The position numbers and the translations under genes are program-made. Below, piece by piece: positions 2,702 to 38,020 of a stretch of DNA of 47,803 nucleotides. The notes under the pieces were generated by a model, which worked only from the letters and a program-made list of their open reading frames with translations, made no database searches and was not told the DNA's origin. Origin of the DNA: Bacteroidales bacterium (GTDB taxonomy: Bacteria > Bacteroidota > Bacteroidia > Bacteroidales > Prolixibacteraceae); NCBI GenBank assembly GCA_031285325.1, contig JAITWJ010000058.1:1-47803 (forward strand). Reading direction: 5' to 3'. Every line of letters starts with the position of its first letter. Position 1 is the first letter of the stretch.

Positions 2702-2719
2702 TTTTAAAAAGACATTACT

Positions 2720-4408: not shown

Positions 4409-4453
4409 ACTGTTTGGCTTTATGTAAAATTGTATTTAATAAATAAAAAAAGC

Positions 4454-4485
4454 AGTCTGCTTCGGGTTCATACCCGGAGCAGACT
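4454..4485 (+). other. Intergenic hairpin between susD and the GH43 gene
   Basis: A 13-bp stem (AGTCTGCTTCGGG paired with CCCGGAGCAGACT, one G-T pair) closes a 6-base loop. There is no T-tract on the + strand after it, so it is unlikely to be a full terminator. In this position it more likely stabilises the susCD transcript end or partly attenuates read-through, giving less mRNA for the enzyme genes than for susCD. Confidence 0.6.
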
Positions 4486-4523
4486 TGTGCATAGAAACGA
4501 TAAAATAAATAATAAGACTGATT

Positions 4524-6656: not shown

Positions 6657-6694
6657 TAGAATTAATTTACAATGTATAATTAACAGTTTTAAAA

Positions 6695-7459: not shown

Positions 7460-7504
7460 TTCTTGAAATCCAAAGTTCAGTTTTTTTGAAAATTTAACTG
7501 TTTT

Positions 7505-7568
7505 AATAACCTTATGCGGTTTAATTGGTATTGTTTACAGAGTAAACTGTATTTAAGGTTATTTTTAT
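7505..7568 (+). terminator. Terminator-like nested hairpin after the SusCD/GH43/CBM9 operon
   Basis: An outer 10-bp stem (AATAACCTTA with TAAGGTTATT) encloses a second stem (GTTTAC, loop AGA, GTAAAC), and the outer 3' arm runs into TTTTTAT. Position and T-tract fit intrinsic termination of the upstream operon and separate it from the esterase gene. Confidence 0.6.
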
Positions 7569-7601
7569 AAGTTTTTGAGTCATGTTTTAGTATTTATTGT
7601 A

Positions 7602-7609
7602 TAAATTTG
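7602..7609 (+). promoter_or_regulatory. Candidate Bacteroidota -7 box (TAAATTTG) for the esterase gene
   Basis: TAAATTTG matches the phylum -7 consensus TAnnTTTG, 52 bp before the ATG and just after the upstream terminator. A TTTG at 7574-7577 could serve as -33 element, but the spacing (24 bp) is longer than the usual 19-21 bp, so this is only a candidate. Confidence 0.35.
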
Positions 7610-7660
7610 TATATCGAAATATTTTATGCATGAAGTTGCCTATTTAAAAACATTATCATT

Positions 7661-9585: not shown

Positions 9586-10479
9586 GTGCATATAAAAATA
9601 GAAAATCTGAATAAGATATATCCAAATGGGAATTACGCCATCAAGGATCTTACCCTTGATATACCAAATGGAATGTTTGGCTTGCTTGGGCCAAACGGAG
9701 CAGGAAAATCGACCTTGATGCGTATATTGGTAACTTTAATGAGGCCGAGTAACGGCAAGGTAACATTTAATGAATACGATTTGGCTAAAAACAGAAAACA
9801 GATTCGTTCTATGTTGGGTTATTTGCCACAGGATTTCAGTTTCTTCTCGAAATTAAAAACTTATGAATTTCTGGATTACACTGCCCGCCTTGCAGGTTTG
9901 AAAAACGGTTCGGTGCGTAAAAATGCCGTAGAGCGCATGTTGGAAGAGGTTGGTTTGTACGAGGCTCGCGACCGTAATGCCAATAAACTGTCGGGGGGAA
10001 TGAAACGCAGGCTTGGAATTGCGCAGGCTTTAATTAATGATCCGCAGGTTATTATTGTTGATGAACCTACTACCGGATTAGATCCTGAAGAACGTATCCG
10101 TTTCAGAAATTTACTTTCAAACATAAGTACCCGCGATGTGGTTATTATTCTTTCTACACATATTGTTGGTGATATTTCGAGTACATGCGATAATATGGCT
10201 TTGCTTAACAGAGGAGAACTCGCATTTGCAGGTTCTCCGGAACAGTTTTTAAAAAAGGCTGAAGGCTGCGTTTGGCAAATTCAAGTGTCCGAATCTGAAT
10301 ATCTTGAAATTAATGAAAAATACCCGGTAATTTCGACCATACCCATTGAAAAAGGGTGGGAGGTACAGGTAGTTACAAATGATATTAACGGATACAGCGG
10401 GGTGCAGATTACACCAAACCTTGAACATGCCTATGTTTATTTTATGGAAAACAGTTTGAATCAATGGACAAATACTTAA
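9586..10479 (+). CDS. ABC transporter ATP-binding protein (ABC-2 exporter type)
   Basis: The product has 297 residues. All ABC ATPase motifs are present: Walker A GPNGAGKST (residues 35-43), Q-loop in YLPQDFSFF, signature LSGGMKRR, Walker B VIIVDEPTTGLDPEE, and the switch His in STHIV. A C-terminal extension of about 75 residues ends in ITPNLEHAYVYFM and resembles the tail of the ATPase fused to the second RND pump (VSPHLEDAYLCLL), so the two ATPases are paralogs. The start is GTG; an out-of-frame ATG at 9575 opens a six-codon frame (MKKLCI) that overlaps this GTG and may couple or limit initiation. The gene ends 6 bp before the large permease gene, which is its likely partner. It is the first gene of the ABC-RND operon. 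Confidence 0.95.
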   Translation: MHIKIENLNKIYPNGNYAIKDLTLDIPNGMFGLLGPNGAGKSTLMRILVTLMRPSNGKVTFNEYDLAKNRKQIRSMLGYLPQDFSFFSKLKTYEFLDYTARLAGLKNGSVRKNAVERMLEEVGLYEARDRNANKLSGGMKRRLGIAQALINDPQVIIVDEPTTGLDPEERIRFRNLLSNISTRDVVIILSTHIVGDISSTCDNMALLNRGELAFAGSPEQFLKKAEGCVWQIQVSESEYLEINEKYPVISTIPIEKGWEVQVVTNDINGYSGVQITPNLEHAYVYFMENSLNQWTNT

Positions 10480-10485
10480 CAAATT

Positions 10486-13400
10486 ATGATTTCATTTCAT
10501 AACATATTTTCAATAGCCAAATATGAAAGAAAAACACTTTTAAGAAGCTGGTTTTTCAGAATTTTCAGCGCTCTTTCGCTGTTTGTACTTTTTTTTGTAA
10601 ACTTTGCCATGGTTGTTCAAGGCATAGGGCCTCAAAGTTGGGCTATACGCAGTATTCCAAGTTCCATACCCTATTTCAACCTTCTTATTTTAAATGTTGT
10701 ACAGGCAATAATAGCTGTTTTTCTTGCTTCCGATTTTTTAAAACGCGATAAAAAACTCGACACCACTGAGGTTATTTATATGCGTTCGATGAGCAACAGT
10801 GAGTATGTTCTTGGTAAAACATGGGGTAACATGCAGGTATTTCTTCTGTTGAATATTTTAATAATTGCGTTGGCTCTTGTATTCAATATGCTTGCAAAAA
10901 ACACCGAAATAGCCTGGCAGTCGTATGTTTTTTATCTGTTTGCTATAAGTGTTCCGACCATTGTTTTTATTATGGGGCTTTCGTTTTTATTAATGAGTGT
11001 AATTCGTAACCAGGCAATTACTTTTGTGTTGATATTAGGGTATATTGGTATTACGCTGTTTCTGCTGCAATCTAAATTTTACTATATTTTCGACTATATG
11101 GCATTTAACATTCCCATGTTAAGTTCCGATATTGTAGGGCTTGGAAACCTTGACGTAATTTTAATTCACCGTGGTATTTATTTGTTTTTGGGATCAGGTT
11201 TTATTTTTCTTACAATTTTCCTTTTGAAAAGATTGCCGCAATCAGAATCCATGACTATTTTTTCTCTCATTATTGGTTTGATATTTATTGGAATCGGAAG
11301 CTATCTTGCTTACGACCATGTGAATAATTTCAGACAAGCAAATTCGCTCAGAGAAAGAGTGGTTGCTTTAAATAATGAGTATGTAAATGAAAATATACCT
11401 ACTTTGAAAAGCAATTCAATAACCTTGAACCATAAAGGAAAAACAATTGAAGTAAATTCAATTATTAAAATAAAAAACGAGAATGAAACGTCTTTAAATA
11501 AACTTATTTTCAATTTAAATAACGGATTGGAAATTTCAAGTATAAAGTATAACGGTTCCGAACAAACATTTGAACGTAAAGAACATTTAATACTGTTGTC
11601 GGAAAATATAAATATTAACCCTTCAGAAGAAGCCACTCTTGAATTTACTTATTCCGGTGTAATAAACGAAGCATTGTGCTACCTCGACGTTGATGAAGAA
11701 ACAATACAGGAGAAATACGGGAGTTTTGTTTTAAATGTGGATAAAAGATATGCATTTATAAATTCAGATTATGTTTTGCTTACACCTGAAACAAACTGGT
11801 ATGTAAAAGCCGGAGTATTGTATAGTTCCGATAATGTTAAATGGGTTCATAATGAATTTGTTGAATATGATTTAACTGTTAATACAGCTCCGGGGTTAAC
11901 CGCTGTTTCACAGGGTGAACCAACAGAAATTTCCAGTGGCCGGTTTTCATTTAAAAACGAAAATCCTCTGACGCAAATATCTCTTGCAATAGGCAATTAT
12001 AAGCAATTAAAAACGATTAACGGTAACATAGAATATGGAATCTGGTATATAGATGGGCACGACTTCTTTTCAGGTGTTTTTCCCGAAACCAAAGATACAA
12101 TTCCTTACTTGGCGAATGAATTTTTCAGCGATTTCCAGAGAAGATATAATCTTGATTATTCATTTGAGCGTTTATCGCTTGTTGAAGTGCCTGCACAGTT
12201 TAAAAGTTATGTGCGCACTTGGACATCGAGACAGGAGTATATTCAACCTGAACAGATTCTTATTCCTGAGAAGGCATTTATGCTGTCGCAGGCCGATTTT
12301 GAAAACTCCATAAAAATGATGCAACGCAGAGGAGGCGGTAGAGGGGGGGGTAATTTGTCGCCACAAGATCTACAGATAAGAGTTTTTGGAAATTTTGCCA
12401 ATCAATTTACAAGCGAATCATCTTTTTCATTTAATCGTTCAATAGGAGGAGCATCTACTGTTCAAAATCAATACTTCTTATTCCCCTTGATTTATAATTT
12501 GCAGAATAACATAAAATCGGATAAATGGCCTGTTGTTAATCAGGTTTTCGAGGCATATTTAAAAAGTAAGAGCGCAGATATGCAATCGTTTTTCATGCGT
12601 GGCATTTCAGATACAGGATTAAGCAACGATGAATTAGCCAATATTGAACTGCAGGATAATTCTTTTGAAGAAATTATATCCGATCCAGATAATAAGGATA
12701 TTATAGAAAATGTAATTAAACTTAAAGGCGATGCGTTGTTTTCGAAAATACAATACATTGCCGGCGAAGAAGAGTTTTCTGTATTTATTGATGAATTACT
12801 TGAAGAATACCGTTTTAAAGACATTTCGTTTGAAGAATTCGATAAAAAAATTGGTGAAAAATTCGGGATCAATCTAACGCCTGTAATGGATGAGTGGTTC
12901 AAGCAAAATAAACTGCCCGGTTTCTTATTTTCTCCTGTAACTGCCGTTCAGGTTAGAACAGGTGAAAGTATGCAAACCATGATAAAATTTAAGGCCACTA
13001 ATTTTACTGATATTGAAGGACTTGTAAAGTTAACATTCAGGCTTGGCGATGGTGGCGGAATGGGTGGTTTTGGCGGAAATGAAGAGGTTGTTAACAAGCT
13101 AATACATCTCGATCCTCATCAAACAAAAGACTTAAGTTATATGCTTGAAAGCGAGCCACGTTTACTTATGATTAATACATTAACATCGCAAAATGTCCCA
13201 CAACTTTTAAGTCATAATTTCAGGGAAATTCCTGAAGACATAAAGGTAAATCCTTTTGAAGGCGAAATATTGTCGGATGTTCCGGTAAACATGATTCAAT
13301 CCGGCGAAATTATTGTTGATAATGAAGACTCTTTATTATTTGAAATAACAAGCAACAAGAGAGTGAGTCTTTTAGAAAAATGGATAATTGACGATGAAAA

Positions 13401-13821
13401 AGATGAAGCAAAATATCAGTCGATAAACAACTTCCGTCCACCAACAAGTTGGACCGCCACAACTAATACTGAATTTTTTGGCAGTAACATACTTTCGGGC
13501 TATTACATAAAGAGTGGCGACGGTTCGCAAACTGCAAAATGGAATGTACCGGTTAAGGAAGAAGGATTTTACGAAGTTTATTACCATTTGTACAAAGCCA
13601 GCAGGCGAGGTAGAGATAACAGATCGAGAGGGAGCTATCTTTTTACTATCACAGGCGATGATGATACTGTTGAACAGGCACTTGATGTTGATGAAGCAGA
13701 ACCTGGCTGGGTATTGTTGGGAACTTACAGTTTCTCTCCCGGAAGAGCTTCGATTGAACTTTCTAATAAGTCGGAATTGAACATGGTGTTTGCCGATGCT
13801 GTAAAATTTATAAAGCAATAA
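10486..13821 (+). CDS. ABC-2 permease fused to an inactive M1-peptidase-like ectodomain and a golvesin-like C-terminal domain
   Basis: The product has 1111 residues. Residues about 20-275 hold seven hydrophobic segments of an ABC-2 type permease. Residues about 290-830 resemble the M1 aminopeptidase half known from the phylum's fused permease/M1 proteins: a beta-rich N-part, then LSLVEVPAQFKSYVRTWTS and QPEQILIPEKAF, and the helical C-part with FDKKIGEKFGINLTPVMDEWF. No HExxH zinc motif exists anywhere; the expected position reads FGNFANQF, so peptidase activity is not expected. Gly-rich stretches occur near 615 and 865. The last roughly 110 residues (SGYYIKSGDGSQTAKWNVPV to ADAVKFIKQ) look like a golvesin/XlyA-type beta-sandwich. 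The protein is probably an inner-membrane exporter subunit with a large periplasmic head. It is translated 6 bp after the ATPase gene. Confidence 0.82.
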   Translation: MISFHNIFSIAKYERKTLLRSWFFRIFSALSLFVLFFVNFAMVVQGIGPQSWAIRSIPSSIPYFNLLILNVVQAIIAVFLASDFLKRDKKLDTTEVIYMRSMSNSEYVLGKTWGNMQVFLLLNILIIALALVFNMLAKNTEIAWQSYVFYLFAISVPTIVFIMGLSFLLMSVIRNQAITFVLILGYIGITLFLLQSKFYYIFDYMAFNIPMLSSDIVGLGNLDVILIHRGIYLFLGSGFIFLTIFLLKRLPQSESMTIFSLIIGLIFIGIGSYLAYDHVNNFRQANSLRERVVALNNEYVNENIPTLKSNSITLNHKGKTIEVNSIIKIKNENETSLNKLIFNLNNGLEISSIKYNGSEQTFERKEHLILLSENININPSEEATLEFTYSGVINEALCYLDVDEETIQEKYGSFVLNVDKRYAFINSDYVLLTPETNWYVKAGVLYSSDNVKWVHNEFVEYDLTVNTAPGLTAVSQGEPTEISSGRFSFKNENPLTQISLAIGNYKQLKTINGNIEYGIWYIDGHDFFSGVFPETKDTIPYLANEFFSDFQRRYNLDYSFERLSLVEVPAQFKSYVRTWTSRQEYIQPEQILIPEKAFMLSQADFENSIKMMQRRGGGRGGGNLSPQDLQIRVFGNFANQFTSESSFSFNRSIGGASTVQNQYFLFPLIYNLQNNIKSDKWPVVNQVFEAYLKSKSADMQSFFMRGISDTGLSNDELANIELQDNSFEEIISDPDNKDIIENVIKLKGDALFSKIQYIAGEEEFSVFIDELLEEYRFKDISFEEFDKKIGEKFGINLTPVMDEWFKQNKLPGFLFSPVTAVQVRTGESMQTMIKFKATNFTDIEGLVKLTFRLGDGGGMGGFGGNEEVVNKLIHLDPHQTKDLSYMLESEPRLLMINTLTSQNVPQLLSHNFREIPEDIKVNPFEGEILSDVPVNMIQSGEIIVDNEDSLLFEITSNKRVSLLEKWIIDDEKDEAKYQSINNFRPPTSWTATTNTEFFGSNILSGYYIKSGDGSQTAKWNVPVKEEGFYEVYYHLYKASRRGRDNRSRGSYLFTITGDDDTVEQALDVDEAEPGWVLLGTYSFSPGRASIELSNKSELNMVFADAVKFIKQ

Positions 13822-13839
13822 ATAATTAAATCAATACAA

Positions 13840-15354
13840 ATGAGTCTTTTTAGAATTAAATCATTACAAAAAATTGCAATGTTGGGATTTGCCTTCTTTG
13901 CAGTAATTCAAGTAACTTATGCACAGGAATTACTGACTCTTGATAGGGCATTACAATATTCTGAAACAGAAAGTCCAATCATTATTCAATCGAAATTGAA
14001 TATTGAAAGAGTACAAAAAAATCTTGAAGCACAGAGAGCCGCTTTAAAATCGAGGTTCTCTCTCGAAGCCAATCCTTTATCTTTCAATAGAAACAGAAGT
14101 TTCGACGATGTGCGTAGTACCTGGTACACGAGTGAGAATCTATCGTCGAATACCAATTTAAGAATATCGCAACCTATTTTATTTACCGATGGAACAATCT
14201 CTTTGAATAACGAGTTTGGCTGGCAAAAAAGTAAATCAAGTGCAACTAATGCAATACCACAAAACGAAAGATTTTATAATAATCTTTATTTAAACTTAAA
14301 TCAGCCGCTTTTTACATATAACCGGTTAAAAATGCAGCTCAAGCAATTGGAACTGAACTACGAAAATGCCAAGATAAGTTATGCTTTGCAGCGTTTAAAT
14401 ATGGAACGAAACGTAACTCAGCAGTTTTATAATGTTTTTATGCTTCAGGAAAACCTTTCTATTGCTAAAGCCGAACTTGAAAATACACAGGTTAATTATG
14501 AACTTATTAAAAATAAAGCCGATGCAGGTTTAGTGGCTATGGAAGAACTGTATCAGGCTGAATTAAATCTGATGCAGTCGCAATCGACTGTTGAAGAAAG
14601 GACAGTAAGCTATGAAAACGCCAAAGACCAATTAAAGTTATTGTTAGGTATGGATATTTATTCTGATTTTGTTATTCTTAATATAGATATTTCAACACAG
14701 GAATCTGTTTCTGTTAATTTGGAACAAGCAATTGAAAATGGGTTAAAAAACAGGATGGAACTGCGACAGAGAGAAATTGATATCGAAAACAGCCAGTTTG
14801 CAATGATTCAAACTAAAGCGCAAAATGAATTTTCAGGTGATTTGAATTTAAGGCTCGGAATTACAGGAGATGATACAAATCTTGCACAAATATACAAAAA
14901 AGAAAATACGGTTAATAACCCTTCTGTATCAATATCGTTTAACTTGCCTATTTTTGATTGGGGTGAAAAAAAAGCAAGGATTGCCGCACAAGAGGCTGCA
15001 ATAGAGTCGGTACAAATTGATTATGAAGAAGAACAAAAAGATATTATCTTGTCAATCCGCGAGGTTTACCGTAGTATTCAAAGTCAATGGAATCAAATAC
15101 AGATTGCTAAGCAGAAGCAGAATAATGCACAGCTTACCTACGAAATTAATAATGAAAGATACCTTAATGGAGATTTAACAGGTATGGATCTTAACCTTCA
15201 GCAACAACAACTTTCAAATGCCAGAATTTCTTATACACAGGCACAGATCAATTATAAGATTGCATTGTTAAATCTCAAAATACAATCTTTATACGATTTC
15301 GAAATGAATTTACCGGTACTGCCGGATGAGTTATATTTAAGTACAGAAAATTAA
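13840..15354 (+). CDS. TolC-family outer-membrane channel protein
   Basis: The product has 504 residues. A signal peptide ends at VTYAQ (about residue 28). The rest shows the duplicated TolC architecture: a first half with LTLDRALQYSETESPIIIQSKLNIERVQKNLEAQRAALK-like helix (split here for brevity into its family hallmarks) and QPLFTYNRLKMQLKQLEL, and a second half with SVNLEQAIENGLKNRMELRQRE, FNLPIFDWGEKKARI and long helices containing many Gln and Asn. TolC proteins form trimeric channels through the outer membrane and periplasm for efflux pumps. It lies 18 bp after the ABC permease gene and 22 bp before the adaptor gene, so it most likely serves both the ABC and RND pumps of the operon. Confidence 0.93.
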   Translation: MSLFRIKSLQKIAMLGFAFFAVIQVTYAQELLTLDRALQYSETESPIIIQSKLNIERVQKNLEAQRAALKSRFSLEANPLSFNRNRSFDDVRSTWYTSENLSSNTNLRISQPILFTDGTISLNNEFGWQKSKSSATNAIPQNERFYNNLYLNLNQPLFTYNRLKMQLKQLELNYENAKISYALQRLNMERNVTQQFYNVFMLQENLSIAKAELENTQVNYELIKNKADAGLVAMEELYQAELNLMQSQSTVEERTVSYENAKDQLKLLLGMDIYSDFVILNIDISTQESVSVNLEQAIENGLKNRMELRQREIDIENSQFAMIQTKAQNEFSGDLNLRLGITGDDTNLAQIYKKENTVNNPSVSISFNLPIFDWGEKKARIAAQEAAIESVQIDYEEEQKDIILSIREVYRSIQSQWNQIQIAKQKQNNAQLTYEINNERYLNGDLTGMDLNLQQQQLSNARISYTQAQINYKIALLNLKIQSLYDFEMNLPVLPDELYLSTEN

Positions 15355-15376: not shown

Positions 15377-16435
15377 ATGAAAAATATAGTATTATTTCTT
15401 TTATTAGGATTTGTTGCAGTTTTTGTATCATGCAACAACCAGCCTCAAAACGTGGGTACAGAATTGGCATCGCCGGTTTCTGTGGAAAGTGTCGTATTGC
15501 AGAGTATAAGTCAGTTTATAAATACTTCCGGAACAGCAAAGTCAGCTTCCGAAGTTGTTCTAAGTACCGAGATGGCCGGTAAATATCATATCGTTAATAA
15601 CCCGCAAACAGGCAGGCCGTTTAAAATTGGCGACAGAGTAAGCCAAGGACAGGTTATTGTTCGTTTGGAAGATGAAGAATATGTAAATAATATTGGTTTG
15701 GAATCGGTTAGACTGAACCTTGAGATTACTGAAGATGAATACAATAAACAACAATCACTTTTCGAAAAGGGAGGGGTAACCCAGTATCAGGTACGTAATG
15801 CTGAAATTTCAAAATTAAATGCTCAAAAAAATTATCATGCTGCTATTATCAATCTTGCAAAAATGGATGTTAAAGCGCCTTTCGATGGGGTTATCGCCGA
15901 TCTTCCATATTACACCGAAGGAACAATTACTCCTTCTAATACACAGGTGGTTACCCTTATGAATTATAGTAAAATATTTATGGAGATTAACCTTCCCGAA
16001 AAAAATATCGCCGATGTAAATATAGGGCAGCAGGCTTTAATTACAAGTTATACGCTTGTAAACGACACTTTAAGGGGCGTTATAACAGAACTTTCACCGA
16101 TGATTAGTACCGAAACCCGAACTTTTAAAGGTACGCTCGAAATAAATAACCCTGATTTAAAATTAAGGCCGGGAATGTTTGTCAAAGCTGATATTATTAA
16201 TGCTCAGAAAGACAGTACTATTGTTATTTCTAAAGACATTATAATGTCAAGTAATAGAGGTAAATATGTATTTGTTGTAGGTGGCAATAATACTGCCGAA
16301 CAACGCATGATAAGTATCGGCCTGCAAAACGAAGACAATGTTGAAGTTACCGAAGGACTTAACCGGAACGACCAGTTAATAATAAATGGCTACCAAACAT
16401 TACGTAACCGTTCAAAAGTTACAATCGTGCTTTAA
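15377..16435 (+). CDS. RND-type periplasmic adaptor (membrane-fusion) lipoprotein
   Basis: The product has 352 residues. A lipoprotein signal with Cys at about residue 19 (VSCNNQPQ) anchors it to the membrane. The order is that of AcrA/MdtA-type adaptors: a beta-barrel strand, first half of a lipoyl domain (GDRVSQGQVIVRLEDEEY), a short coiled-coil hairpin (about 105-155), second lipoyl half (VKAPFDGVIADLPYYTEG), beta-barrel (VNIGQQALITSY, LRPGMFVKADI) and a membrane-proximal domain ending LRNRSKVTIVL. The hairpin is short, as in many adaptors of this phylum. It bridges the inner-membrane RND pump to the TolC channel. It sits between tolC-like and RND genes in the operon. Confidence 0.93.
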   Translation: MKNIVLFLLLGFVAVFVSCNNQPQNVGTELASPVSVESVVLQSISQFINTSGTAKSASEVVLSTEMAGKYHIVNNPQTGRPFKIGDRVSQGQVIVRLEDEEYVNNIGLESVRLNLEITEDEYNKQQSLFEKGGVTQYQVRNAEISKLNAQKNYHAAIINLAKMDVKAPFDGVIADLPYYTEGTITPSNTQVVTLMNYSKIFMEINLPEKNIADVNIGQQALITSYTLVNDTLRGVITELSPMISTETRTFKGTLEINNPDLKLRPGMFVKADIINAQKDSTIVISKDIIMSSNRGKYVFVVGGNNTAEQRMISIGLQNEDNVEVTEGLNRNDQLIINGYQTLRNRSKVTIVL

Positions 16436-16471
16436 TATCCATTTTGGATTTTTACCAGAAAATTGATTAAT

Positions 16472-19400
16472 ATGAAGAAATTAACAGAATTTTCTATCAA
16501 TTTCCCGATAACAATTTTAATGATAATACTGGGAGTCATCCTTTTAGGTTGTATTTCGTTTGGTAAATTGGGAATTGATTTGTTTCCCGACCTAAATTCA
16601 CCAAGAATTTTTGTCGAGATAAGATCTGGCGAGCGTCCACCTGAAGAAATGGAGAAACAATTTGTTCAGCAGATTGAGGCTTTAGCAATTCGTCAGCGCG
16701 ATGTTGTTCAAGTTACATCAGTGTCGAAAGTTGGAACTGCGCAAATTACTGTAGAATATAATTGGAATAAAGATATGGACGAGGCTTTTCTCGATTTGCA
16801 GAAAGCGTTGAATTCAGTTGGTGGCCTCGACGAAATAAATATTACCCAGCATAATCCAAATAATTTGCCGGTAATGATCATAGGATTAACTCATACCGAA
16901 ATAAAAGATATGAACGAAATCCGTAAAATTGCTGAGAATTATATTCGAAACGACTTGGTCAGACTTGATGGAGTTGCAGAAGTTGAACTTTCAGGACAAG
17001 AGAAAAGCGAAATTATTATTAAAACCGATCCTTATCGCTTAGCAGCCCAGAATCTTACTCTCGATGAAATTAATTCACGTATTACAGCTTTTAATCGTAG
17101 TGTTTCAGGCGGCAGGATAAGCGAATTGGGAATGCAGTATATTGTTAAAGGGATAAGCCTTCTTCAAACAACTGAAGATTTTGAAAACCTGATTGTTGGG
17201 TATAAAGCTGTAAGGGCACAGACCGGTAACCAGCCAAGAGTAGAAATGGCCCCTGTATTTTTGAAAGATGTTGCAACAGTAACAAGAGAAAACAAAAGAC
17301 CCGATAATATTATTCATATAAATGGCGAGCGTTGTATAGGTTTGGCTGTTTACAAAGAAACACAATATAATACTGTAAATGCTGTTGGTCAGATCAATGA
17401 CGCCTTGGTAAACATTCAGAAGGCTTTGCCAGGATATAACCTTGAAGTGGTTTCAAACCAGGGGAAATTTATCAGTCAGGCTATCGGAGAGGTACAAAAT
17501 TCGGCTTTGTTCGGTATTTTACTTGCAGTATTCGTTTTGTTTGTTTTTTTGAGGCGTTTAGGTACTACACTAATAGTGAGTGTTGCTATTCCTATTTCAA
17601 TTATTGCCACATTTAACATGATGTATTTCACGAATCTTACGATTAACGTTATGACACTTGGAGGCCTTGCTCTTGGAGCAGGTATGCTGGTTGATAACGC
17701 CATTGTAGTTTTGGAAAATATTTTCCGTAATCATGAAAACGGTATGAGCGTGAAAGAAGCTGTGATTGTTGGCGCATCTCAAGTCGGAGGGGCTATAACA
17801 GCCTCAACTCTTACAACCATAGTAGTTTTTCTTCCGATTGTATATTTGCATGGTGCTTCAGGTGAACTTTTTAAAGATCAGGCATGGACAGTAGCTTTTT
17901 CATTAATTTCTTCAATTTTTGTAGCTATTTTTCTTATTCCAATGATGTATCATCGGTTTTATAGAAACAAGAAGTATGAAGTGAAACAAAAATCGATAGA
18001 ACTTGGTGGATTTGCCCGGTTACTTGAGAAAATATTAAATATTAAGTGGACGGTTATTATTGTATCAGTGATAATTGTTGTAGGAGCATATTTGCTCATT
18101 CCTTTTATTGGTGCCGAATTTATGCCAAAAACAGAAACAAATGAATTTTCAATTGATTTGAAATTACAGGAAGGTACAGAGTTGGAAAGAACAGAATCGA
18201 CAGTGCAGGTTATTGAAGCAATTGTTAATGAATATCTCGGCGATAACCTTAAAACATTGTATTCGCATGTAGGCCCAACAGCCAGTATTCAAGGAGATGA
18301 AAATTCAGTTTTTAGAGGTGAAAATACTGCACAGATTTCGATCGCTTTAAACGAAGGTTCCCAAATTACTTCAGAGATGGTTATTGAAACTATTGATATG
18401 ATGACATCAGGCGTAGAAGGTTTGGAAATAAATTTTTCGAAAAGTCAAAATGCTTTAAGTAATATTCTTGGCACTGATGAATCTCCTGTAGTAGTTGAAG
18501 TTCGTGGTGAAGAACTACCTGAAATAGAAAAAGTTGTGAACGAGGTTAAACTGCGTATGTTGGAAATGAATGAGTTATTTAATGTTCAAACTTCAATTGA
18601 AGGTGGTGCTCCTGAAGTAGAGATTCAAATAGACAGAATAAGGGCAGGTATTCATAATATAAATGTTCAAACAGTAATTACTCAACTACAATCGCAACTT
18701 GAAGGCCAAACTGCAGGTCAACTGGAGTATGGCGGAGAATTGGAAGATATTGTAATAAAAGTACCTGAAAAAGATTTGTCGGAAATTGATGGACTTACAA
18801 TTAATTCCGGAGGCCAGATTTTTCGACTCGAAGAAATTGCCGATATCTCGTATAGTATTTCCCCAAAAGAAATTATAAGGAGAAACCAGACAAGGATTGG
18901 AAAAATAACAGCTCAGATGGTGCAGGGGGTTGCTCTTGATCAGGTTTCTAAAGAAATTTTACAGGCAACTTCCGATATTGAACTTAAACCAAACTACAAT
19001 ATTATGGTAACCGGAGAAGAAGAAAAAAGACAGGAATCAATGAGGAATCTCGGTTTTGCACTTATTTTATCGATAGTGTTGGTTTATATGGTTATGGCAT
19101 CGCAATTCGAGTCATTAATCCACCCATTTACCATTTTATTTACTATCCCGTTGGCAGTTGCAGGAAGTATTTTTATCTTCTTTATTATGGGTAAAAATTT
19201 CAATATAATGGCTTTAATAGGAATAATCATGCTTGCCGGTATAGCTGTCAATAACTCTATTATTTTAGTTGACAGGATAAACCAGTTAATTCGTGATGGT
19301 ATGACGAGGAAAGACGCAATAATACAGGCAGGGCAGCAACGTATCAGGCCAATTATAATGACGAGTTTGACAACTATTATTGCATTATTACCTTTAACAA

Positions 19401-19558
19401 TCGGTTTTGGCGAAAGTGTGTCGTTACGTTCGCCAATGGCTCTTGCTGTTATCGGAGGTTTAACAACTTCCACCATCATGACACTAATAGTTATACCATG
19501 TGTTTTTGATGTTCTCGACAGGTTTAGTAAACTTTTTGTTAAGAAAAAGAATCAATAA
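16472..19558 (+). CDS. RND-family efflux permease (first of two)
   Basis: The ATG at 16472 is preferred over an in-frame TTG nine bases upstream, giving 1028 residues, the usual length for this family. The fold is complete: TM1 (FPITILMIILGVILLGCISFG), porter domain with ERPPEEMEKQFVQQIE, TM2-6 with the conserved AGMLVDNAIVVLENIFR motif that holds the proton-relay Asp, TM7 and the second porter half, then TM8-12 (LVYMVMASQFESLIHPFTI, GIAVNNSIILVDRINQL, RPIIMTSLTTIIALLPL). It is a proton-driven exporter of the hydrophobic/amphiphilic efflux (HAE-like) branch. A second, paralogous RND gene follows 33 bp downstream, so the two may form a heterotrimer as MdtB and MdtC do, which is inference. Confidence 0.95.
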   Translation: MKKLTEFSINFPITILMIILGVILLGCISFGKLGIDLFPDLNSPRIFVEIRSGERPPEEMEKQFVQQIEALAIRQRDVVQVTSVSKVGTAQITVEYNWNKDMDEAFLDLQKALNSVGGLDEINITQHNPNNLPVMIIGLTHTEIKDMNEIRKIAENYIRNDLVRLDGVAEVELSGQEKSEIIIKTDPYRLAAQNLTLDEINSRITAFNRSVSGGRISELGMQYIVKGISLLQTTEDFENLIVGYKAVRAQTGNQPRVEMAPVFLKDVATVTRENKRPDNIIHINGERCIGLAVYKETQYNTVNAVGQINDALVNIQKALPGYNLEVVSNQGKFISQAIGEVQNSALFGILLAVFVLFVFLRRLGTTLIVSVAIPISIIATFNMMYFTNLTINVMTLGGLALGAGMLVDNAIVVLENIFRNHENGMSVKEAVIVGASQVGGAITASTLTTIVVFLPIVYLHGASGELFKDQAWTVAFSLISSIFVAIFLIPMMYHRFYRNKKYEVKQKSIELGGFARLLEKILNIKWTVIIVSVIIVVGAYLLIPFIGAEFMPKTETNEFSIDLKLQEGTELERTESTVQVIEAIVNEYLGDNLKTLYSHVGPTASIQGDENSVFRGENTAQISIALNEGSQITSEMVIETIDMMTSGVEGLEINFSKSQNALSNILGTDESPVVVEVRGEELPEIEKVVNEVKLRMLEMNELFNVQTSIEGGAPEVEIQIDRIRAGIHNINVQTVITQLQSQLEGQTAGQLEYGGELEDIVIKVPEKDLSEIDGLTINSGGQIFRLEEIADISYSISPKEIIRRNQTRIGKITAQMVQGVALDQVSKEILQATSDIELKPNYNIMVTGEEEKRQESMRNLGFALILSIVLVYMVMASQFESLIHPFTILFTIPLAVAGSIFIFFIMGKNFNIMALIGIIMLAGIAVNNSIILVDRINQLIRDGMTRKDAIIQAGQQRIRPIIMTSLTTIIALLPLTIGFGESVSLRSPMALAVIGGLTTSTIMTLIVIPCVFDVLDRFSKLFVKKKNQ

Positions 19559-19590: not shown

Positions 19591-22500
19591 ATGAATTTCA
19601 TCATAAATAGAAAAGTACTTATTAGTATGTTGTTTGCCGGGCTTACACTGCTTGGATACATTTCGTACAAACAACTGCAAATTGAGTTAATGCCAAACGC
19701 AGAACTTCCTACTTTGAGTGTACAGATAAGTTCCAGAAATGAAGTCGATCCAAACTATATGGAAAAACAGGCAGTTATTCCTATCGAAGGTGCTATAGGG
19801 ACAATGGATGGAATTGAAAGCATGGAAACTTCTCTGAACAGCCGTTCGGCAACCATACAGGTTAATTTCAAGCAAAATGTTAATACAAAATATTTGTTTT
19901 TACGGCTTCAGGAAAAAATAGATCAGGCGGCCGAAACTCTTGACGATAATTTTACAGTTAACGTTAACCGAAATTCAGGAAATACATCGAACATGTTTAT
20001 GGAACTCCAGGTTAGGGGGACAGAAGGCGCGGACAGAGTAAGGAGTGTGGTCGATGAGGAAGTTACAGACCAAATAGAAAATATAGATGGAGTAGCAACA
20101 GTGGAGGTTTACGGCGGACAGGAAAAATCAGTAGAGGTTACTTATGATCCTGCCGCAATTAAGGCCTACAATATTACCCCTTCGCAAATCCAGAGTGCAA
20201 TTTCATCGGGGGCTACAGAACGTGTATTTACCGGGTATTTGCATGATTCACAGAAAAAACATTTTGTTTTGGTTACATCTGAATATAAAACCGTTTCCGA
20301 CATAGAAAATATTGTTGTGGCTGATGGACCAATTTATTTAAAAGATGTTGCCGATGTGTATTTTGGTGTAAAAGAAGTTGAAACTATTAGCAGGATTAAT
20401 GGAATGGAATCGGTTTCAATGGTGCTTTACAGCGAATCGCAAGCTAATTTGATAGAACTGTCTCACAGGGTACAGGACGAGATTGCTAAACTTAATGAAG
20501 AGCTTGCCCAAAAAGAAGTTGAAATAGTTGTGCAGGCTGATGTAGCCGAAACAATGGAGGAAAACATAAGCCAGATAATGAATTTGGCTTTGGTTGGAGG
20601 TTTGTTTGCAATTTTTGTACTCTGGATGTTTTTGAAAAATTTACGACTGGTATCTTTCATTGCACTGGCAATACCTATATCATTGTTTACCTCGTTCAAT
20701 CTTTTTTATGCATTTAATATTTCGCTGAACAGTTTAACATTGGTAGGCTTGGTACTTGCTATAGGTATGTTGCTTGATAATAGTGTGGTCGTTCTTGAGA
20801 ATATTTACCGGTTATCAGGGAAAAGGTATGATGCCGACACGGCAGTAACTCAAGGAACAAAAGAAGTATGGCGCTCAATTGTAGCTTCTACATTAACTAC
20901 AGTAACAGTGTTCTTCCCGTTTATATTTTCATCGGACAGCATGGTACGTTTGTTAGGGAATAATATTGGGGTTTCCATTGTGTCAACATTAATGGTTTCG
21001 CTTTTTGTAGCCTTATTGCTTATTCCAATGTTGGCTCATTTTTTGCTGAAGGGTAAGGTTTCGCACAGTATTTTTTATGAAAAGGTTACCACAAACAACA
21101 GGATTGTTCAAATTTATATACTGTTACTTAAAACAAGCCTCAGAAATCCCGCGGGAACAATTCTTGGTGCAATTGTTGTTTTTTTCATAACCATTTTTAT
21201 TACTCTCGCAGTTAGTGTTTCGTCGCTTCAGGAAATAGAAGAAGACCAGTTTCAAATTTCAGTTGACATGCCAACAGGTACTACACTTGAATCGACCGAT
21301 TTAATTGTAGCCGATGTAGAGAGCAGATTGAAGGATATTGAAGAAATTCAGGATATTGGTTCAAATATTCAGGCAGAACAGGCTTCTTTAACTGTTTCAT
21401 TAAAGGAAGATTTCAAAGCAATTAAAAATCGTACTGTCGCAGAAATAAAAACCGATGTTGAAAATAAATTACGAGGTATCCAGCAAGCTGATATAGATAT
21501 TGTTTCCGCATCATCTGTTGGAGGTGCCGGACAACAGGGCGGCAGTCAGGATTTTAGCAGTTTCCTTGGAATTGGTTCAAATCAGGAACGTGTTATTGTA
21601 AAAGGGGAAAATTTTGAGGTAATGCGTGGGGTTGCTGAAGATTTGCAGTATTACATTGAAAATCTTGAATCAATTCGTAGAGCGAGAGCAAATATATCGA
21701 GAAACCAGCCTGAAATACACATGTATTTCGACCAGTTGCTTCTCATAGAATACGGCTTTTCATTAAATAATGTATCATCAGAACTTGGTTCGTTTACAAG
21801 AGAGTTTACTTCAGGAGCGAGTTTCATACAGGATGATGAGAATTACGACATTATTATAAAAGAAAAAAAGATTGACGACATACAGGAAGAAGTCGAACAA
21901 AGGAATATGGATGATTTGCGCCGGCTTCAGGTTAGTAATACTTCCGGTGCGACTTACGACTTACAGGATTTTACCGATTTGGTTTATGCTGAAGGTATGT
22001 CGAGGTTTAATCGAGTTAACCAGGAGAAACAAATAGAAGTAACTTACAGTTTTATCGATGATGCCCAACAGTCAAACGAATTACTCGAAGCCTACCGTTT
22101 AGAAATTGACGATATTGTTGCCGGCTATAAATTACCAACAGGAGTGGCGGTAGAAGTAGTTCACGAAGAAAATCAGTTTAATGAATTTTATTTTCTGATT
22201 GGAGCTGCTTTTATATTGATTATAATGATTCTGGCTTCGGTATTCGAATCGCTTGTAATTCCATTTGTTTTATTGTTTTCAGTGCCACTGGCAGCAATAG
22301 GTTCGTTGCTCGCAATCCTTTTTACAGGAAACAGTTTATTTAATGCGAACACTTTGATGGGGTTTTTAATTTTACTTGGCGTAGTAGTTAACAATGGTAT
22401 TATTTTAATTGACTATACCAATATACTTCGTAAAAATGGATACCGTAAATCCAGAGCATTAATGACAGCCGGCCTTTCGAGGGTTAGGCCTATTTTGATA

Positions 22501-24294
22501 ACATCAATTACCACAATTGTAGCTATGGTTCCTTTGGCTATGGGTAAAGCTGAATATGTTGGGGCAATTGGTGCACCGTTTGCAATTACTGTTATCGGTG
22601 GACTTGTATTCAGTACACTGCTCACTTTAGTTTTTATACCTACCTTGTATGTAGGTCTGGAAAATGCACTTAACTGGATAAAATCATTGCCATTGACTTT
22701 AAAACTTGCTCAAATTACGGTTTTTATTATCGGTACTTTGTTTATTTGTTTTAAAGTACAGGATTTTGTGTGGCAGATGCTTGACTTTATGTTTATTGTT
22801 GTTGCAATTCCAGGTATTACGGCTTTCGTAATGTCGAGCCTGCGTCAGGCAAGTGCTTCTATAATTGATGAAAATACGTCAATTAATATAAAAATCAGAA
22901 AACTTGTGAAAATATACGACCGCGACAACCAATTTGCACGCGAATGGAAATCTGGCATAAAAGTAAGGGCACGTGCTGGTTTACTCAAGAATTACAAGTC
23001 GGTTCGCGATTTTTACGATCTTTTATGGCAATTGCCATTATTTGTATTTTTGGTGTATTTTACATTTTTCTACATTGAAAAAAGCTTTTGGATGTGGATA
23101 TTTTCTCATGCAGTTTACTTCTTCCTGTTTCTTTTATACGTTCCTGTTAATCAGGTATTGATAAATAAATATGAATCAACCAAAAAACATAATTACTTGA
23201 AAATTAACCGTATAATCAGAAATATTATATACTGGATTTCTCCTTTGGTATTTCTTTTCTCATTTTTTAAACGTTGGGATAACATAGGTATGGTAATTTT
23301 TACAGGTGTTATATGGATGTTACTTTTGGTTATTTATGCTACCGGAGACTATATACACAGTAATAATTTGAATATAGCCCGTATTTCGGGAAAATTTGGT
23401 TCACTACGCAGAGGATATTTCAACATTGTAAGGCAAATTCCTATTATAGGGAAACGCAAAAAACCTTTCAGAGCCTTAAACGGTGTTTCACTCGAAATTA
23501 AAACAGGTATGTTCGGTTTACTTGGCCCCAATGGTGCCGGTAAGTCAACAATGATGCGTACCATTTGCGGTATTCTTGAACAGAGTTACGGAAAAATTTG
23601 GATAAACGGCATGGACACCCAAAAATACAGGGAAGAATTACAGGGATTAATAGGTTATCTGCCGCAGGCATTCGGTACTTACGAGAATATGTCGGCTTGG
23701 GAGTTTCTCGATTATCAGGCCATTTTGAAAGGAATTACCGATACAGAAGTAAGAAATGGACGTTTGGATTATGTTTTAAAAAGTGTACACATGTATGATC
23801 GCAGGAACGACAAAATTGGCTCGTTCTCCGGAGGTATGAAACAGCGTATAGGTATTGCACAGATTTTACTTAATCTGCCGCGCATACTCGTAGTTGACGA
23901 ACCTACAGCCGGTCTTGATCCACGCGAAAGAATACGGTTCCGTAACTTGCTTGTTGAACTTAGCCGCGAGAGAATTGTAATATTTTCAACTCATATTATA
24001 GAAGATATTTCGAGTTCCTGTAACCAGGTTGCAGTTATTAATAGAGGAAATCTTAAATATTTCGGTACACCTAACGATATGCAGAAAATAGGCGCCGATT
24101 TTGTATGGCATTTTACCATGCCGGTTTCCGAGTTCGAGAATTATACAAATAAACAATTTATTGTTCATCACGTGCGCGAAGGCGAGAATATAAGAATTAG
24201 GAGCCTTGCTAAGGAAAAACCGGCCGAAAACGCCGTTCAGGTTTCTCCGCATCTCGAAGATGCATATTTGTGTTTGCTTAAAGATTTTGTGTAA
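19591..24294 (+). CDS. RND efflux permease fused to an extra membrane domain and an ABC ATPase
   Basis: A single uninterrupted frame of 1567 residues. Residues 1 to about 1028 are a full RND pump: TM1, porter domains, VLAIGMLLDNSVVVLENIYR in TM4, SVFESLVIPFVLLFSVPLAAIGS and VVVNNGIILIDYTNIL in the second half. Residues about 1030-1270 form a linker with roughly six hydrophobic segments and a basic cytosolic loop; I do not recognise it. Residues about 1285-1567 are an ABC ATPase: Walker A GPNGAGKST (1312-1320), YLPQ Q-loop, signature SGGMKQR (from 1413), Walker B ILVVDEPTAGLDP (from 1432), switch His in STHII. Its tail resembles that of the first ATPase of the operon. The fused ATPase probably pairs with the ABC-2 permease encoded 12 bp downstream. 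No stop or frameshift marks the junctions, so the fusion looks genuine. Confidence 0.93.
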   Translation: MNFIINRKVLISMLFAGLTLLGYISYKQLQIELMPNAELPTLSVQISSRNEVDPNYMEKQAVIPIEGAIGTMDGIESMETSLNSRSATIQVNFKQNVNTKYLFLRLQEKIDQAAETLDDNFTVNVNRNSGNTSNMFMELQVRGTEGADRVRSVVDEEVTDQIENIDGVATVEVYGGQEKSVEVTYDPAAIKAYNITPSQIQSAISSGATERVFTGYLHDSQKKHFVLVTSEYKTVSDIENIVVADGPIYLKDVADVYFGVKEVETISRINGMESVSMVLYSESQANLIELSHRVQDEIAKLNEELAQKEVEIVVQADVAETMEENISQIMNLALVGGLFAIFVLWMFLKNLRLVSFIALAIPISLFTSFNLFYAFNISLNSLTLVGLVLAIGMLLDNSVVVLENIYRLSGKRYDADTAVTQGTKEVWRSIVASTLTTVTVFFPFIFSSDSMVRLLGNNIGVSIVSTLMVSLFVALLLIPMLAHFLLKGKVSHSIFYEKVTTNNRIVQIYILLLKTSLRNPAGTILGAIVVFFITIFITLAVSVSSLQEIEEDQFQISVDMPTGTTLESTDLIVADVESRLKDIEEIQDIGSNIQAEQASLTVSLKEDFKAIKNRTVAEIKTDVENKLRGIQQADIDIVSASSVGGAGQQGGSQDFSSFLGIGSNQERVIVKGENFEVMRGVAEDLQYYIENLESIRRARANISRNQPEIHMYFDQLLLIEYGFSLNNVSSELGSFTREFTSGASFIQDDENYDIIIKEKKIDDIQEEVEQRNMDDLRRLQVSNTSGATYDLQDFTDLVYAEGMSRFNRVNQEKQIEVTYSFIDDAQQSNELLEAYRLEIDDIVAGYKLPTGVAVEVVHEENQFNEFYFLIGAAFILIIMILASVFESLVIPFVLLFSVPLAAIGSLLAILFTGNSLFNANTLMGFLILLGVVVNNGIILIDYTNILRKNGYRKSRALMTAGLSRVRPILITSITTIVAMVPLAMGKAEYVGAIGAPFAITVIGGLVFSTLLTLVFIPTLYVGLENALNWIKSLPLTLKLAQITVFIIGTLFICFKVQDFVWQMLDFMFIVVAIPGITAFVMSSLRQASASIIDENTSINIKIRKLVKIYDRDNQFAREWKSGIKVRARAGLLKNYKSVRDFYDLLWQLPLFVFLVYFTFFYIEKSFWMWIFSHAVYFFLFLLYVPVNQVLINKYESTKKHNYLKINRIIRNIIYWISPLVFLFSFFKRWDNIGMVIFTGVIWMLLLVIYATGDYIHSNNLNIARISGKFGSLRRGYFNIVRQIPIIGKRKKPFRALNGVSLEIKTGMFGLLGPNGAGKSTMMRTICGILEQSYGKIWINGMDTQKYREELQGLIGYLPQAFGTYENMSAWEFLDYQAILKGITDTEVRNGRLDYVLKSVHMYDRRNDKIGSFSGGMKQRIGIAQILLNLPRILVVDEPTAGLDPRERIRFRNLLVELSRERIVIFSTHIIEDISSSCNQVAVINRGNLKYFGTPNDMQKIGADFVWHFTMPVSEFENYTNKQFIVHHVREGENIRIRSLAKEKPAENAVQVSPHLEDAYLCLLKDFV

Positions 24295-24305
24295 AAATAA
24301 AACAA

Positions 24306-25025
24306 ATGGAAAAAAAAATAAATCTGAAGAATAGAACATTTATTTTTCAGAAAATGATCAGGTATAATTTAAAAATAATTTTTGCAAACAAGTTTATATG
24401 GTTCTTGTTGGCCGCTTTGGGTATTTTCTTGTTTTTCGCAATACAGTCAGTTTTAGACCAGCAAGATATTGCCGAAGGAACAATTTACAACCTGTTGACA
24501 TTTCCGGGAATACTGCTTATTTTTTACCCTTCTGTTTTTGGAATCCAAAATGACGACGACGCAAGAATGCTCGAAATTCTGTTTGGAATACCGAATTACA
24601 GATATAAAATTTGGTTAGTTCGCCTTATAATGATTTATGCATTAGTTTTTGTTGTTGTTTTTGCGTTTGCGTGGCTTGCCTCAATTCTTCTGTACGACAT
24701 CGGAATTATCGAAATGTCGTATCAGCTTATGTATCCCATTTTATTTATGGGGTCGATGGCATTTATGTTTTCAACCCTCATAAAAAACGGGAATGGAACA
24801 GCGGTAGTTATGATACTTGTTGGTGTTGCATTAATTATTTTAGAGACTGAAATTGAGAGGACACAATGGAATGTATTCCTTAACCCTTTTGATGTTCCTG
24901 ATAATATGAATATTGTAATTTGGACCAATATCATATCCAAGAACAGGATTTTTCTTGGTGCAGGTATGGTCGTTTTTGTTTTATACGGGCTGTTTAATAT
25001 GCAAAAAAGAGAGCGGTTTGTATAA
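24306..25025 (+). CDS. ABC-2 type membrane permease, small
   Basis: The product has 239 residues, with about six hydrophobic segments: FIWFLLAALGIFLFFAIQ (near 35), a second around 65-80, then three long ones between about 100 and 180, and a last one at about 215-230. An N-terminal cytosolic segment and the motif ILFGIPNYRYKIWLVRL after TM2 fit the coupling region of ABC-2 permeases, like the ILE-GLP-SR type element in relatives. It has no ATPase domain. It starts 12 bp after the RND-ABC fusion, whose C-terminal ATPase is the nearest candidate to energise it. It is the last gene of the seven-gene operon; a hairpin terminator lies about 150 bp downstream. Confidence 0.83.
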   Translation: MEKKINLKNRTFIFQKMIRYNLKIIFANKFIWFLLAALGIFLFFAIQSVLDQQDIAEGTIYNLLTFPGILLIFYPSVFGIQNDDDARMLEILFGIPNYRYKIWLVRLIMIYALVFVVVFAFAWLASILLYDIGIIEMSYQLMYPILFMGSMAFMFSTLIKNGNGTAVVMILVGVALIILETEIERTQWNVFLNPFDVPDNMNIVIWTNIISKNRIFLGAGMVVFVLYGLFNMQKRERFV

Positions 25026-33375: not shown

Positions 33376-35163
33376 TCAATAAACGTACACAAATTTACTA
33401 TAAGTGCCTATATAATTACCGTTAACCGATACGGTGCACGAAACCATGTCGTAATCGAGATACGGGTCATTTGGAATATTAAATAACCCCTCGGACGAAG
33501 CAGTGTTGCTTGAAGCCGAAACAAGGCTTCCGGCGCTCCACTCGTATTTCAGGCCTGGGTATGTGCGAGGCATTAATTGAAACGAAACGTATGTACTACC
33601 TTTATATACTGCGTCGGGGCCTGTAACAGGCCCTAATGAAGGAGAAGCCACTCCTATAGATTGAGTTGCAACAACCTCGCCGTTTACTTTTGCGGTAAGC
33701 GTTCCTGAGCCCGAATTTGCCGTTGTAGTAACAATTGTCGCACTGCCGGTAGTAGATGAGAGCGATAACGGGCCGCTTACTGTCCATGTTACTGTTCCCG
33801 GAGGTGCATTATAAAGATAATAAGTTGCTTTATTTCCGTTATAGTATATTTCGGAAGTGCCGGAGATATATACCAAACTGGAACTGTTATTACTCAGGAA
33901 AGCATTTATCTCGTTTATTGAATGTTGGCAAAACCAAAGATCAGATTTTTTTGTTCCCTGACACATAAGGGAAGCTTCTGTTTGATTTCCACATTCACAT
34001 GCTGGCGGAGGACCAGAAGGCATTAAATTTAAATCAACCGCATTAAGATTATGACCTATCTCATGAGCTGTAGTTTGGTACATATCTGTACGTTCCATGC
34101 TCAATGAATATGCTTTATTATTAGGTGTGTTACCATTAATAGCACCACCCGAAAATGATGCTCCCCAAGTGCCTCCGGCAAGTGTTTTTCCGGTAAACAA
34201 ATGGGCAATATGACGGTTAACTCCTCTAAGGTTAGCATTCCAGTAGTTCCGAAAAGACTCAAGCAGAGTGCCTGGATTACTTGAAGTGTAGGGTTGGGAA
34301 CTTGTAGTATAGATATTACGAATAGTAACATAAAGGCTTATGCCAAATGTCGATTCGTAAACACCATCAGCACGATTCAGTGCCTGAAAAATACGACTTG
34401 AGCTGTTTGTTCCATTTTTCTGATAAAATTCATAGTCGGCATCGACTGCAATTTTAAGAGACCTTGTTGATACTGCCCTGGTTAAAGGCACACTTTGCAT
34501 TGTTACAGACTCACCCTGTGTAATTAAACTTTCAGCTACATCATCAGGAATTTCAAAAACATCGCTAACATAATCTGTATAACTGTCATCAGGAATAATG
34601 TCCCAATTTTTATACGCAATAAAACTGTTATCGCCTTTGTTTTGAGTATAATCGTTAGCAGGCCTTATTTCGTAATGATAATTTTCACCTAATATAATAC
34701 CTGATAAAATGTTTTCATCTATGGTAAAACGTACGGTTTTACCATCAGAAGTGAAACCTTTGTATGTGTTTACTACAAACGGTTCCGGATCTTCAAACAC
34801 ACCTTCGCCGGTAGTTATTGTTGCTTTAAAATCAGGCGCACGCAAATCGTTTAATTCCAAATCGATTATCCAATCCAACTCTTCATCAATTTGTAACCGC
34901 AAACTTCCCGCTCCACCTTTAAAATATCCTGCCAGTTCTTTTAAATCTAACGTAAAAGCAGCGTATTTGCTTAAGTGTTTGTCAAGAATTGCTTTATCGT
35001 TTTCTGTTAACGAAGCGCTTTTTATATCCGGAGTATAAACTGCTTCCTGTGAACGGGTAACAGCATTAACATCCTGTTCTGTGCTGTAGGGTTTAAGTTC
35101 CTGTTCTCTACAGCTAAAAGCTATAAAAAACAGAACAAAAAATACAGTTATTAATTTTTTCAT
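33376..35163 (-). CDS. Secreted metzincin-like zinc metalloprotease lipoprotein with Ig-like C-terminal domains
   Basis: The product has 595 residues. Lipoprotein signal with Cys at about residue 18 (FIAFSCREQELK). Residues about 40-215 look like a propeptide. A catalytic domain at about 225-420 carries TTAHEIGHNLNAVD: His367, Glu368, His371 and Asp377 match the metzincin pattern HExxHxxGxxH/D, but Asn stands at the usual Gly position. A Met-turn candidate, SLMCQG with Met400, follows, with Cys residues near it as in reprolysin-type (M12B) enzymes. The C-terminal about 170 residues form two beta-sandwich modules (TWTVSGPLSLSS and KYEWSAGSLVSASS) of PKD/Ig kind. It is preceded by two homologous small lipoprotein genes in the same direction, the nearer ending 3 bp before this ATG, so the three are co-expressed. 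Confidence 0.85.
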   Translation of the reverse strand: MKKLITVFFVLFFIAFSCREQELKPYSTEQDVNAVTRSQEAVYTPDIKSASLTENDKAILDKHLSKYAAFTLDLKELAGYFKGGAGSLRLQIDEELDWIIDLELNDLRAPDFKATITTGEGVFEDPEPFVVNTYKGFTSDGKTVRFTIDENILSGIILGENYHYEIRPANDYTQNKGDNSFIAYKNWDIIPDDSYTDYVSDVFEIPDDVAESLITQGESVTMQSVPLTRAVSTRSLKIAVDADYEFYQKNGTNSSSRIFQALNRADGVYESTFGISLYVTIRNIYTTSSQPYTSSNPGTLLESFRNYWNANLRGVNRHIAHLFTGKTLAGGTWGASFSGGAINGNTPNNKAYSLSMERTDMYQTTAHEIGHNLNAVDLNLMPSGPPPACECGNQTEASLMCQGTKKSDLWFCQHSINEINAFLSNNSSSLVYISGTSEIYYNGNKATYYLYNAPPGTVTWTVSGPLSLSSTTGSATIVTTTANSGSGTLTAKVNGEVVATQSIGVASPSLGPVTGPDAVYKGSTYVSFQLMPRTYPGLKYEWSAGSLVSASSNTASSEGLFNIPNDPYLDYDMVSCTVSVNGNYIGTYSKFVYVY

Positions 35164-37969: not shown

Positions 37970-38020
37970 GATTATTTGTTTTAATTTATTTATTTAATGT
38001 GTTACTACATTATTTTGGTT

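Follow-up and report, generated by a model that had tools for sequence, protein, structure and literature searches.

An RND permease fused to an apparently split ABC ATPase in a conserved operon of Bacteroidota

RND pumps and ABC transporters are usually treated as separate energy classes. A precedent for partnership between them is the export of PDIM in mycobacteria, for which, according to the passages of two papers that deal with it, an ABC exporter of the DrrA type (type V), DrrABC, and the RND protein MmpL7 are both needed, the latter lacking the usual proton relay and having Ala at the TM4 relay sites (PMC11539658, PMC8427324). The parts of this system are separate proteins, and the same passages mention neither TolC nor an adaptor. 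Two adjacent RND genes with a single adaptor are found in MdtABC-TolC, and MdtBC is named as a rare heterotrimer in a review (PMC8277102). In Bacteroidota, there are RND-TolC (OEP) fusions of 1449-1526 aa, in which RND and an extra C-terminal domain also form one chain, but what is added there is a channel of the outer membrane and not an ATPase (among relatives of the protein described here, the RND permeases L215, L216 and L217 are fused to such a TolC-type outer-membrane efflux domain). MacAB-TolC performs ATP-driven tripartite export with an adaptor and TolC, but without RND, and MacB, which is a type VII ABC protein, has its own porter domain. MdtABC-TolC, in turn, is not known to have an ATPase or an ABC-2 porter.

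The locus analysed here puts both energy classes in one chain. In the window (the whole stretch of DNA that was analysed, 47,803 nucleotides), a frame on the forward strand starts with an ATG at 19591 and runs for 1567 codons to 24294 with zero internal stops, encoding a 1567-aa protein (19591..24294, +) in which an RND permease is followed by two predicted membrane helices and an apparently split ABC ATPase. The earlier note, made from the sequence and its reading frames, had described this single polypeptide and placed in it a full-length RND permease to about residue 1028, which Pfam bears out: ACR_tran spans residues 2-1022 (E 2.5e-167), covering the entire permease, and ABC_tran is found at residues 1296-1440 (E 2e-27). 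Hydropathy gives 12 hydrophobic segments within the RND part (residues 1-1025; 19591..22665, +) and six further ones at 1035-1250. By domain, this part clearly belongs to RND, and an AcrB-like mode of working remains putative. The fusion presents known modules in a new architecture, and the earlier note's remark that it knew of no described transporter with this layout agrees with our literature search, in which narrow queries covering titles and abstract openings, with few subscription papers or preprints, returned no description of such an RND-ABC fusion or operon.

Sequence searches found the fusion in many genomes. In the same genus, 22 of 24 carry it full length, without a stop and at 71-75% identity; in G023 two contigs carry one piece each, and G015, which is 70% complete, gave no match. 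Beyond the genus, this search also yielded a full-length copy in G031 and partial ones, at contig ends, in G035 and G038. At the level of the order, the middle segment of the fusion is present in 40 of 295 genomes (own genome included). In 32 of these it lies in an open frame no shorter than 1515 aa, while the eight others (G283, G046, G112, G301, G035, G161, G285 and G305) were taken to be truncated at contig ends, from the loci themselves in seven cases and from coordinates alone in G305. Matches were obtained in 8 of 395 genomes of the class and 7 of 395 of the phylum (own genome included in both). Three weak class matches (G534, G678 and G685; E between 1.7e-4 and 8.8e-4, frames 31-179 aa long, internal stops in two) were counted as chance, as was G534 in the phylum search, where it is one of the seven. 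These weak three set aside, no middle segment standing unfused as a separate protein was seen among the matches listed in the order, class and phylum searches, and a plasmid search with the linker gave no match. The fusion occurs in about one in seven of the sampled genomes of the order and is patchy in other Bacteroidota classes.

A collection of named genomes contains 288 stretches encoding a relative, the best 80 of which were kept; these come mostly from Prolixibacteraceae (Draconibacterium, Mariniphaga, Maribellus, Prolixibacter and Sunxiuqinia among them) and also from other Bacteroidota. Among these best 80, the fusion is full length in 70, begins at a contig end in six and begins 154 bases inside the contig in L122; three draft loci split it between two frames, the break lying near residues 1435-1469 in L086 (in the ATPase), near 128 in L089 and near 321-324 in L128 (both in the RND part). 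No stop or frameshift lies at the join between RND and ATPase, which is intact in independent genomes. It is scarcely conceivable that an assembly or annotation artefact joined two genes here, because the same stop-free join recurs in dozens of independent genomes, including the single-contig listings G006, G008 and G013. Furthermore, the chain is under constraint. Of 153 pairs compared, the 21 closest fall within seven related species (dS is saturated in several more distant pairs); in these 21, the RND part has a dN/dS of 0.012-0.042, the first two additional helices (TM13-14) with the first strand of the ATPase 0.043-0.116, the insert that follows 0.022-0.069 and the ATPase 0.004-0.019. Purifying selection acts on all four parts, and the ATPase is the most constrained.

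The fusion lies in a run of seven genes on the forward strand, with gaps of 6 to 32 bases between them. ABC1 (9586..10479) is a separate ABC ATPase, DrrA/GldA-like by Pfam and profiles and 41% identical to the fused ATPase. The following gene (10486..13821) encodes a 1111-aa protein that by Pfam and hydropathy combines an ABC-2-like membrane domain, an M1-peptidase-like domain without HEXXH and Golvesin_C. Next come, by Pfam and profiles, a TolC-type outer-membrane channel (13840..15354) and a periplasmic adaptor of the RND_mfp family (15377..16435). RND1 (16463..19558), assigned by Pfam and by a structure-sequence match, is a second, unfused RND permease whose best solved-structure match is MdtB. 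Directly downstream of the fusion, a 239-aa protein with six predicted TM by hydropathy (24306..25025) is a possible ABC-2-type permease half. Two adjacent RND genes with one adaptor is the layout of MdtABC-TolC; the operon here differs in having ATPases and ABC-2 porter candidates, and its mixed trimer is putative.

These neighbours travel with the fusion. In the named loci with room on the contig, drawn from the best 80 of the 288 relatives, RND1 is beside it in 64/64, the adaptor is present in 61/61, TolC in 60/60 and some part of the M1-like protein in 60/60. The gene for the 239-aa protein directly follows the fusion in 69 of 72 named loci under a distance rule, and in L064, L083 and L110 it is in the locus but beyond that distance. 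RND1 reads in two frames in L086, L103 and L123. ABC1 immediately precedes the M1-like gene in each of the 17 fetched loci where the contig leaves room for it; 11 of these had been retrieved through the ATPase match itself. As for the 25 ATPase-only matches listed in the search that covered the genus and genomes beyond it (36-45% identity), 23 are on the contig of the fusion at the place of ABC1 and two are on other contigs (G019 and G035), the one in G035 matching ABC1 (L028). Further afield, all seven genes are found in L163, from another order of the class, and L162 and L164, from another class, contain all operon genes within reach of the stretch that was fetched. The M1-like and 239-aa proteins have one match each per genome, in this locus, in the four genomes searched (4/4).

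Both ATPases match DrrA/GldA profiles, and the fused one is near ABCA-type solved structures, which places it close to the ABCA/DrrA/NosF type (type V). The assignment of porters is more tentative. The M1-like protein of the window scores 23.7 bits with ABC2_membrane_2, against a Pfam cut-off of 27.2 that a relative exceeds. For the 239-aa protein, the Pfam matches to ABC2_membrane_3 (best E 0.0027, 2 of 52 members) and ABC2_membrane_4 (4 of 52) are not significant, NCBIfam drrC gives E 0.016 in 1 of 52, and in profile comparison with ABC-2 permeases the probabilities stay under 3%, a level that reversed controls also reach. The HEXXH zinc site is absent from the M1-like domain in 11/11 sequences (10 distinct genomes, L024 and L179 being the same locus). 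This domain is therefore probably a binding or docking domain, apparently a pseudo-enzyme that has been kept with the operon.

The catalytic motifs of the fused ATPase are intact, as had been reported from the first reading: Walker A GPNGAGKS at residues 1312-1319 (23524..23547, +), the signature SGGM at 1413-1416 (23827..23838, +) and Walker B VVDEP at 1434-1438 (23890..23904, +), with an H-loop STH at residue 1466. The strings of the Q-loop, signature, D-loop and H-loop are found in 66/66 fusion sequences, those of Walker A and Walker B in 62/66 and 63/66; GPNGAGK, the core of Walker A, and the Asp-Glu of Walker B are invariant (alignment A2, 66 sequences). Where the earlier note saw a complete ABC ATPase preceded by an unrecognised linker with six hydrophobic stretches, the motifs and the six segments (1035-1250, no Pfam family) stand, but the contiguous part of the ATPase with its C-terminal domain (residues 1293-1567; 23467..24291, +), assigned by Pfam and profiles, lacks the first strand and A-loop, for which the best candidate lies about 180 residues upstream, inside the supposed linker.

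In ABC ATPases, the first strand with the A-loop tyrosine is normally directly before the second strand and Walker A, and this is the arrangement in ABC1 of the same operon. In the fusion, by contrast, the alignment to the GldA model begins at model position 16, which is residue 1294 (some NCBIfam models begin aligning earlier, at 1283-1287). A profile built from the N-terminal 25 residues in 19 ABC1 sequences, most of which come from one genus, matches the same site in 66/66 middle segments (the window and 65 relatives, which are related and not independent), aligning its own first strand and tyrosine; in the window this is residues 1098-1109, INIKIRKLVKIY (22882..22917, +). The score exceeds the best of 1320 shuffles (4.9) in 47/66 and zero in 64/66, with a median of 9.0; 19/66 fail to beat the best shuffle, 2 of 66 being below zero, and the window's own sequence scores 5.0 in the long segment, barely over the best shuffle, for a match of 12 residues. 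The same profile gives nothing above -3.1 in the RND part. The alternative placement, with the first strand right before Walker A (1255-1300), was rejected, since the profile there reaches at most 1.0 (median -0.8) and maps to the second strand or scraps. Moreover, when compared separately, two pieces of the fusion cover the ABC1 profile between them: residues 1093-1114 align with columns 18-39 (pairwise E 2.8e-5, probability 74%), and the part from residue 1292 onward aligns with columns 37-309. L1105, V1106, K1107 and Y1109 are invariant across the 66 sequences of alignment A2, and in the distant relative L162 Val replaces the strand Leu at the position of L1105.

Because the first strand maps to 1098-1109, some 180 residues with four predicted helices would lie inside the ATPase: an insert at residues 1110-1292 (22918..23466, +), delimited by hydropathy and profile, with helices at 1144-1162, 1168-1186, 1208-1226 and 1232-1250. 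The fused ABC domain is thus apparently split, and the linker is more aptly divided into two helices (TM13-TM14, residues 1035-1081, from hydropathy; 22693..22833, +), the first strand of the ATPase and then four helices within the ATPase. In G295 and G102, the distance from strand to Walker A is 135 residues versus about 200, with two and one predicted helices, respectively; these are the distant relatives L165 and L167, with an ATPase insert about 70 residues shorter. A simple hydropathy rule finds three helices in the insert of L162 and L164. Since an even number of helices keeps the sidedness, we suspect, judging by eye, that the insert of G295 and G102 is one hairpin and that helices have been overlooked elsewhere. 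In L161 and L166 (G129 and G246), with frames of 1640 and 1627 aa, there are extra polar residues between the detached strand and the following helix. The charge pattern of the loops gives modest backing to the proposed topology: the three long loops assigned to the cytosol carry 15.0, 5.1 and 10.2 Lys+Arg on average, compared with 0.2-1.4 for the short loops assigned to the periplasm, but the loop TM12-13, which is cytosolic by RND topology, averages 1.1, and the TM17-18 loop is per residue as charged as the cytosolic ones. The regulatory insertion in CFTR NBD1 likewise lies inside an ABC ATPase, near its first strands, but there it is a flexible cytosolic region, whereas the insert of the fusion carries predicted membrane helices. 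No similarly interrupted ABC ATPase was found described in the limited literature search mentioned above; one broken by membrane hairpins would widen the known tolerance of a very conserved fold.

The fusion, its conservation, the operon, the intact ATPase motifs and the detached A-loop strand are read from the sequences themselves. What we infer about the ATPase pair, the mixed trimer, the transport direction, the coupling and the part played by the M1-like domain can be set out as a scheme, to which we would give about an even chance, in which the seven genes make one export machine, a dual-engine tripartite exporter with an ABC half and a mixed RND1/RND2/adaptor/TolC half (RND2 being the fused permease). 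The ABC half, type V or ABC-2 like, would pair ABC1 with the ATPase that RND2 carries. Its two small porters would perhaps be the 239-aa protein and, from the M1-like protein, the N-terminal domain, and it would load substrate from the cytoplasm or the inner leaflet. The periplasmic M1-peptidase-like/golvesin domain, its zinc site lost, may then take over the substrate, and the mixed permease with adaptor and TolC would move it across the outer membrane. In function, such an exporter would most likely be comparable to DrrABC with MmpL7, the differences being the covalent tie, the single relay Asp kept in the fusion (see below) and the presence of TolC and an adaptor in the operon. ABC ATPases act in pairs. 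The earlier note held that the fusion forces one ATPase per RND protomer, three per trimer; this finds no support here, because the operon also holds genes for another RND permease, RND1, and another ABC ATPase, ABC1, which makes a mixed trimer, assumed from gene adjacency and with one fused chain whose ATPase would pair with ABC1, at least as likely. The fusion would thus tie one ATPase to one RND subunit, and the helices, two before and four within the ATPase, may hold it at the membrane beside that subunit and pass motion on. The physical coupling of two energy sources, also proposed in the earlier note, would follow from such a tie. We tentatively go one step further and consider, as a possibility we would not bet on, that ATP mechanically powers or gates the RND pump through an ABC ATPase threaded through the membrane: the A-loop strand and the Walker A core flank the membrane hairpins, and ATP binding might move the helices against the RND subunit. 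If true, ATP would here be coupled to a membrane machine in a novel manner. Be that as it may, the fusion offers a fixed handle on ABC-RND cooperation, a question still open for DrrABC and MmpL7, which are separate proteins.

How the permease is energized bears on the alternatives. When aligned with MexB, the fusion keeps the TM4 Asp396, which is followed by Asn397, and has Asn934 in TM10 where MexB has Lys, each of the three in 71/71 fusions; RND1 has the same TM4 Asp and Asn in 63/63 and the TM10 Asn in 62/63. The usual relay (TM4 Asp pair and TM10 Lys), which is a mark of mechanism, is thus incomplete in both RND subunits. An unlikely but coherent reading is that the ATPase drives the RND subunit directly, ATP replacing or supplementing proton flow without a separate ABC porter cycle. 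The covalent tie kept across the family would be consistent with this, as would the retention of only the first TM4 Asp in both subunits when L169 of the same genome keeps Asp-Asp-Lys, and the fact that MmpL7, in the passages cited, is an RND protein without the relay that works with DrrABC (PMC11539658, PMC8427324). However, the relay argument is weakened because three of the five other RND-superfamily sequences checked in the own genome (L172, L173 and L176) also lack the second Asp, the remaining one, L171, having Asp-Asp with Arg; the pattern is not special to an ABC-linked pump. L172 and L173, both on contig C18, have Asn at the TM10 Lys position too. We know of no ABC fusion for L172, L173 or L176. 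In addition, the invariance of the retained Asp (71/71 fusions, 63/63 RND1) means that the fusion could still use protons through it, and the operon offers separate porter candidates for the ATPases.

The helices themselves have prompted two other readings. Counted together, two and four, they would make a six-helix ABC membrane domain and turn the fusion into an RND protein plus a complete ABC half-transporter, with the number of predicted helices and the long loops between TM14-15 and TM16-17 in its favour; we find this distinctly improbable, since the helices match neither ABC-2 permeases nor Pfam families at a significant level, the first strand of the ATPase falls between the second and third helix, an arrangement we do not know from any ABC transporter, and in two distant relatives the insert is shorter and one or two helices are predicted in it. 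Profile comparisons run on the linker as an ABC-2 membrane domain or a known Pfam family gave no support to either. Alternatively, the long membrane insert could serve as an anchor for an ATPase that acts as a regulator or assembly clamp, opening or locking the pump on ATP binding without powering transport, but the conservation of the hydrolysis motifs and the strong constraint on the ATPase (omega 0.004-0.019 in 21 pairs) make this very unlikely. The preferred reading remains the seven-gene exporter in which the fused ATPase would pair with ABC1.

Around the operon, the window encodes, at 47-9082 and 36893-40270, a TonB plug and SusD-type pair, GH43, a CBM9-like protein, a carboxylesterase and GH10 with GH67, a set of flanking genes that looks like one for xylan use. 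On the reverse strand, at 33376-35163, lies a gene for a reprolysin-like M12 metallopeptidase.
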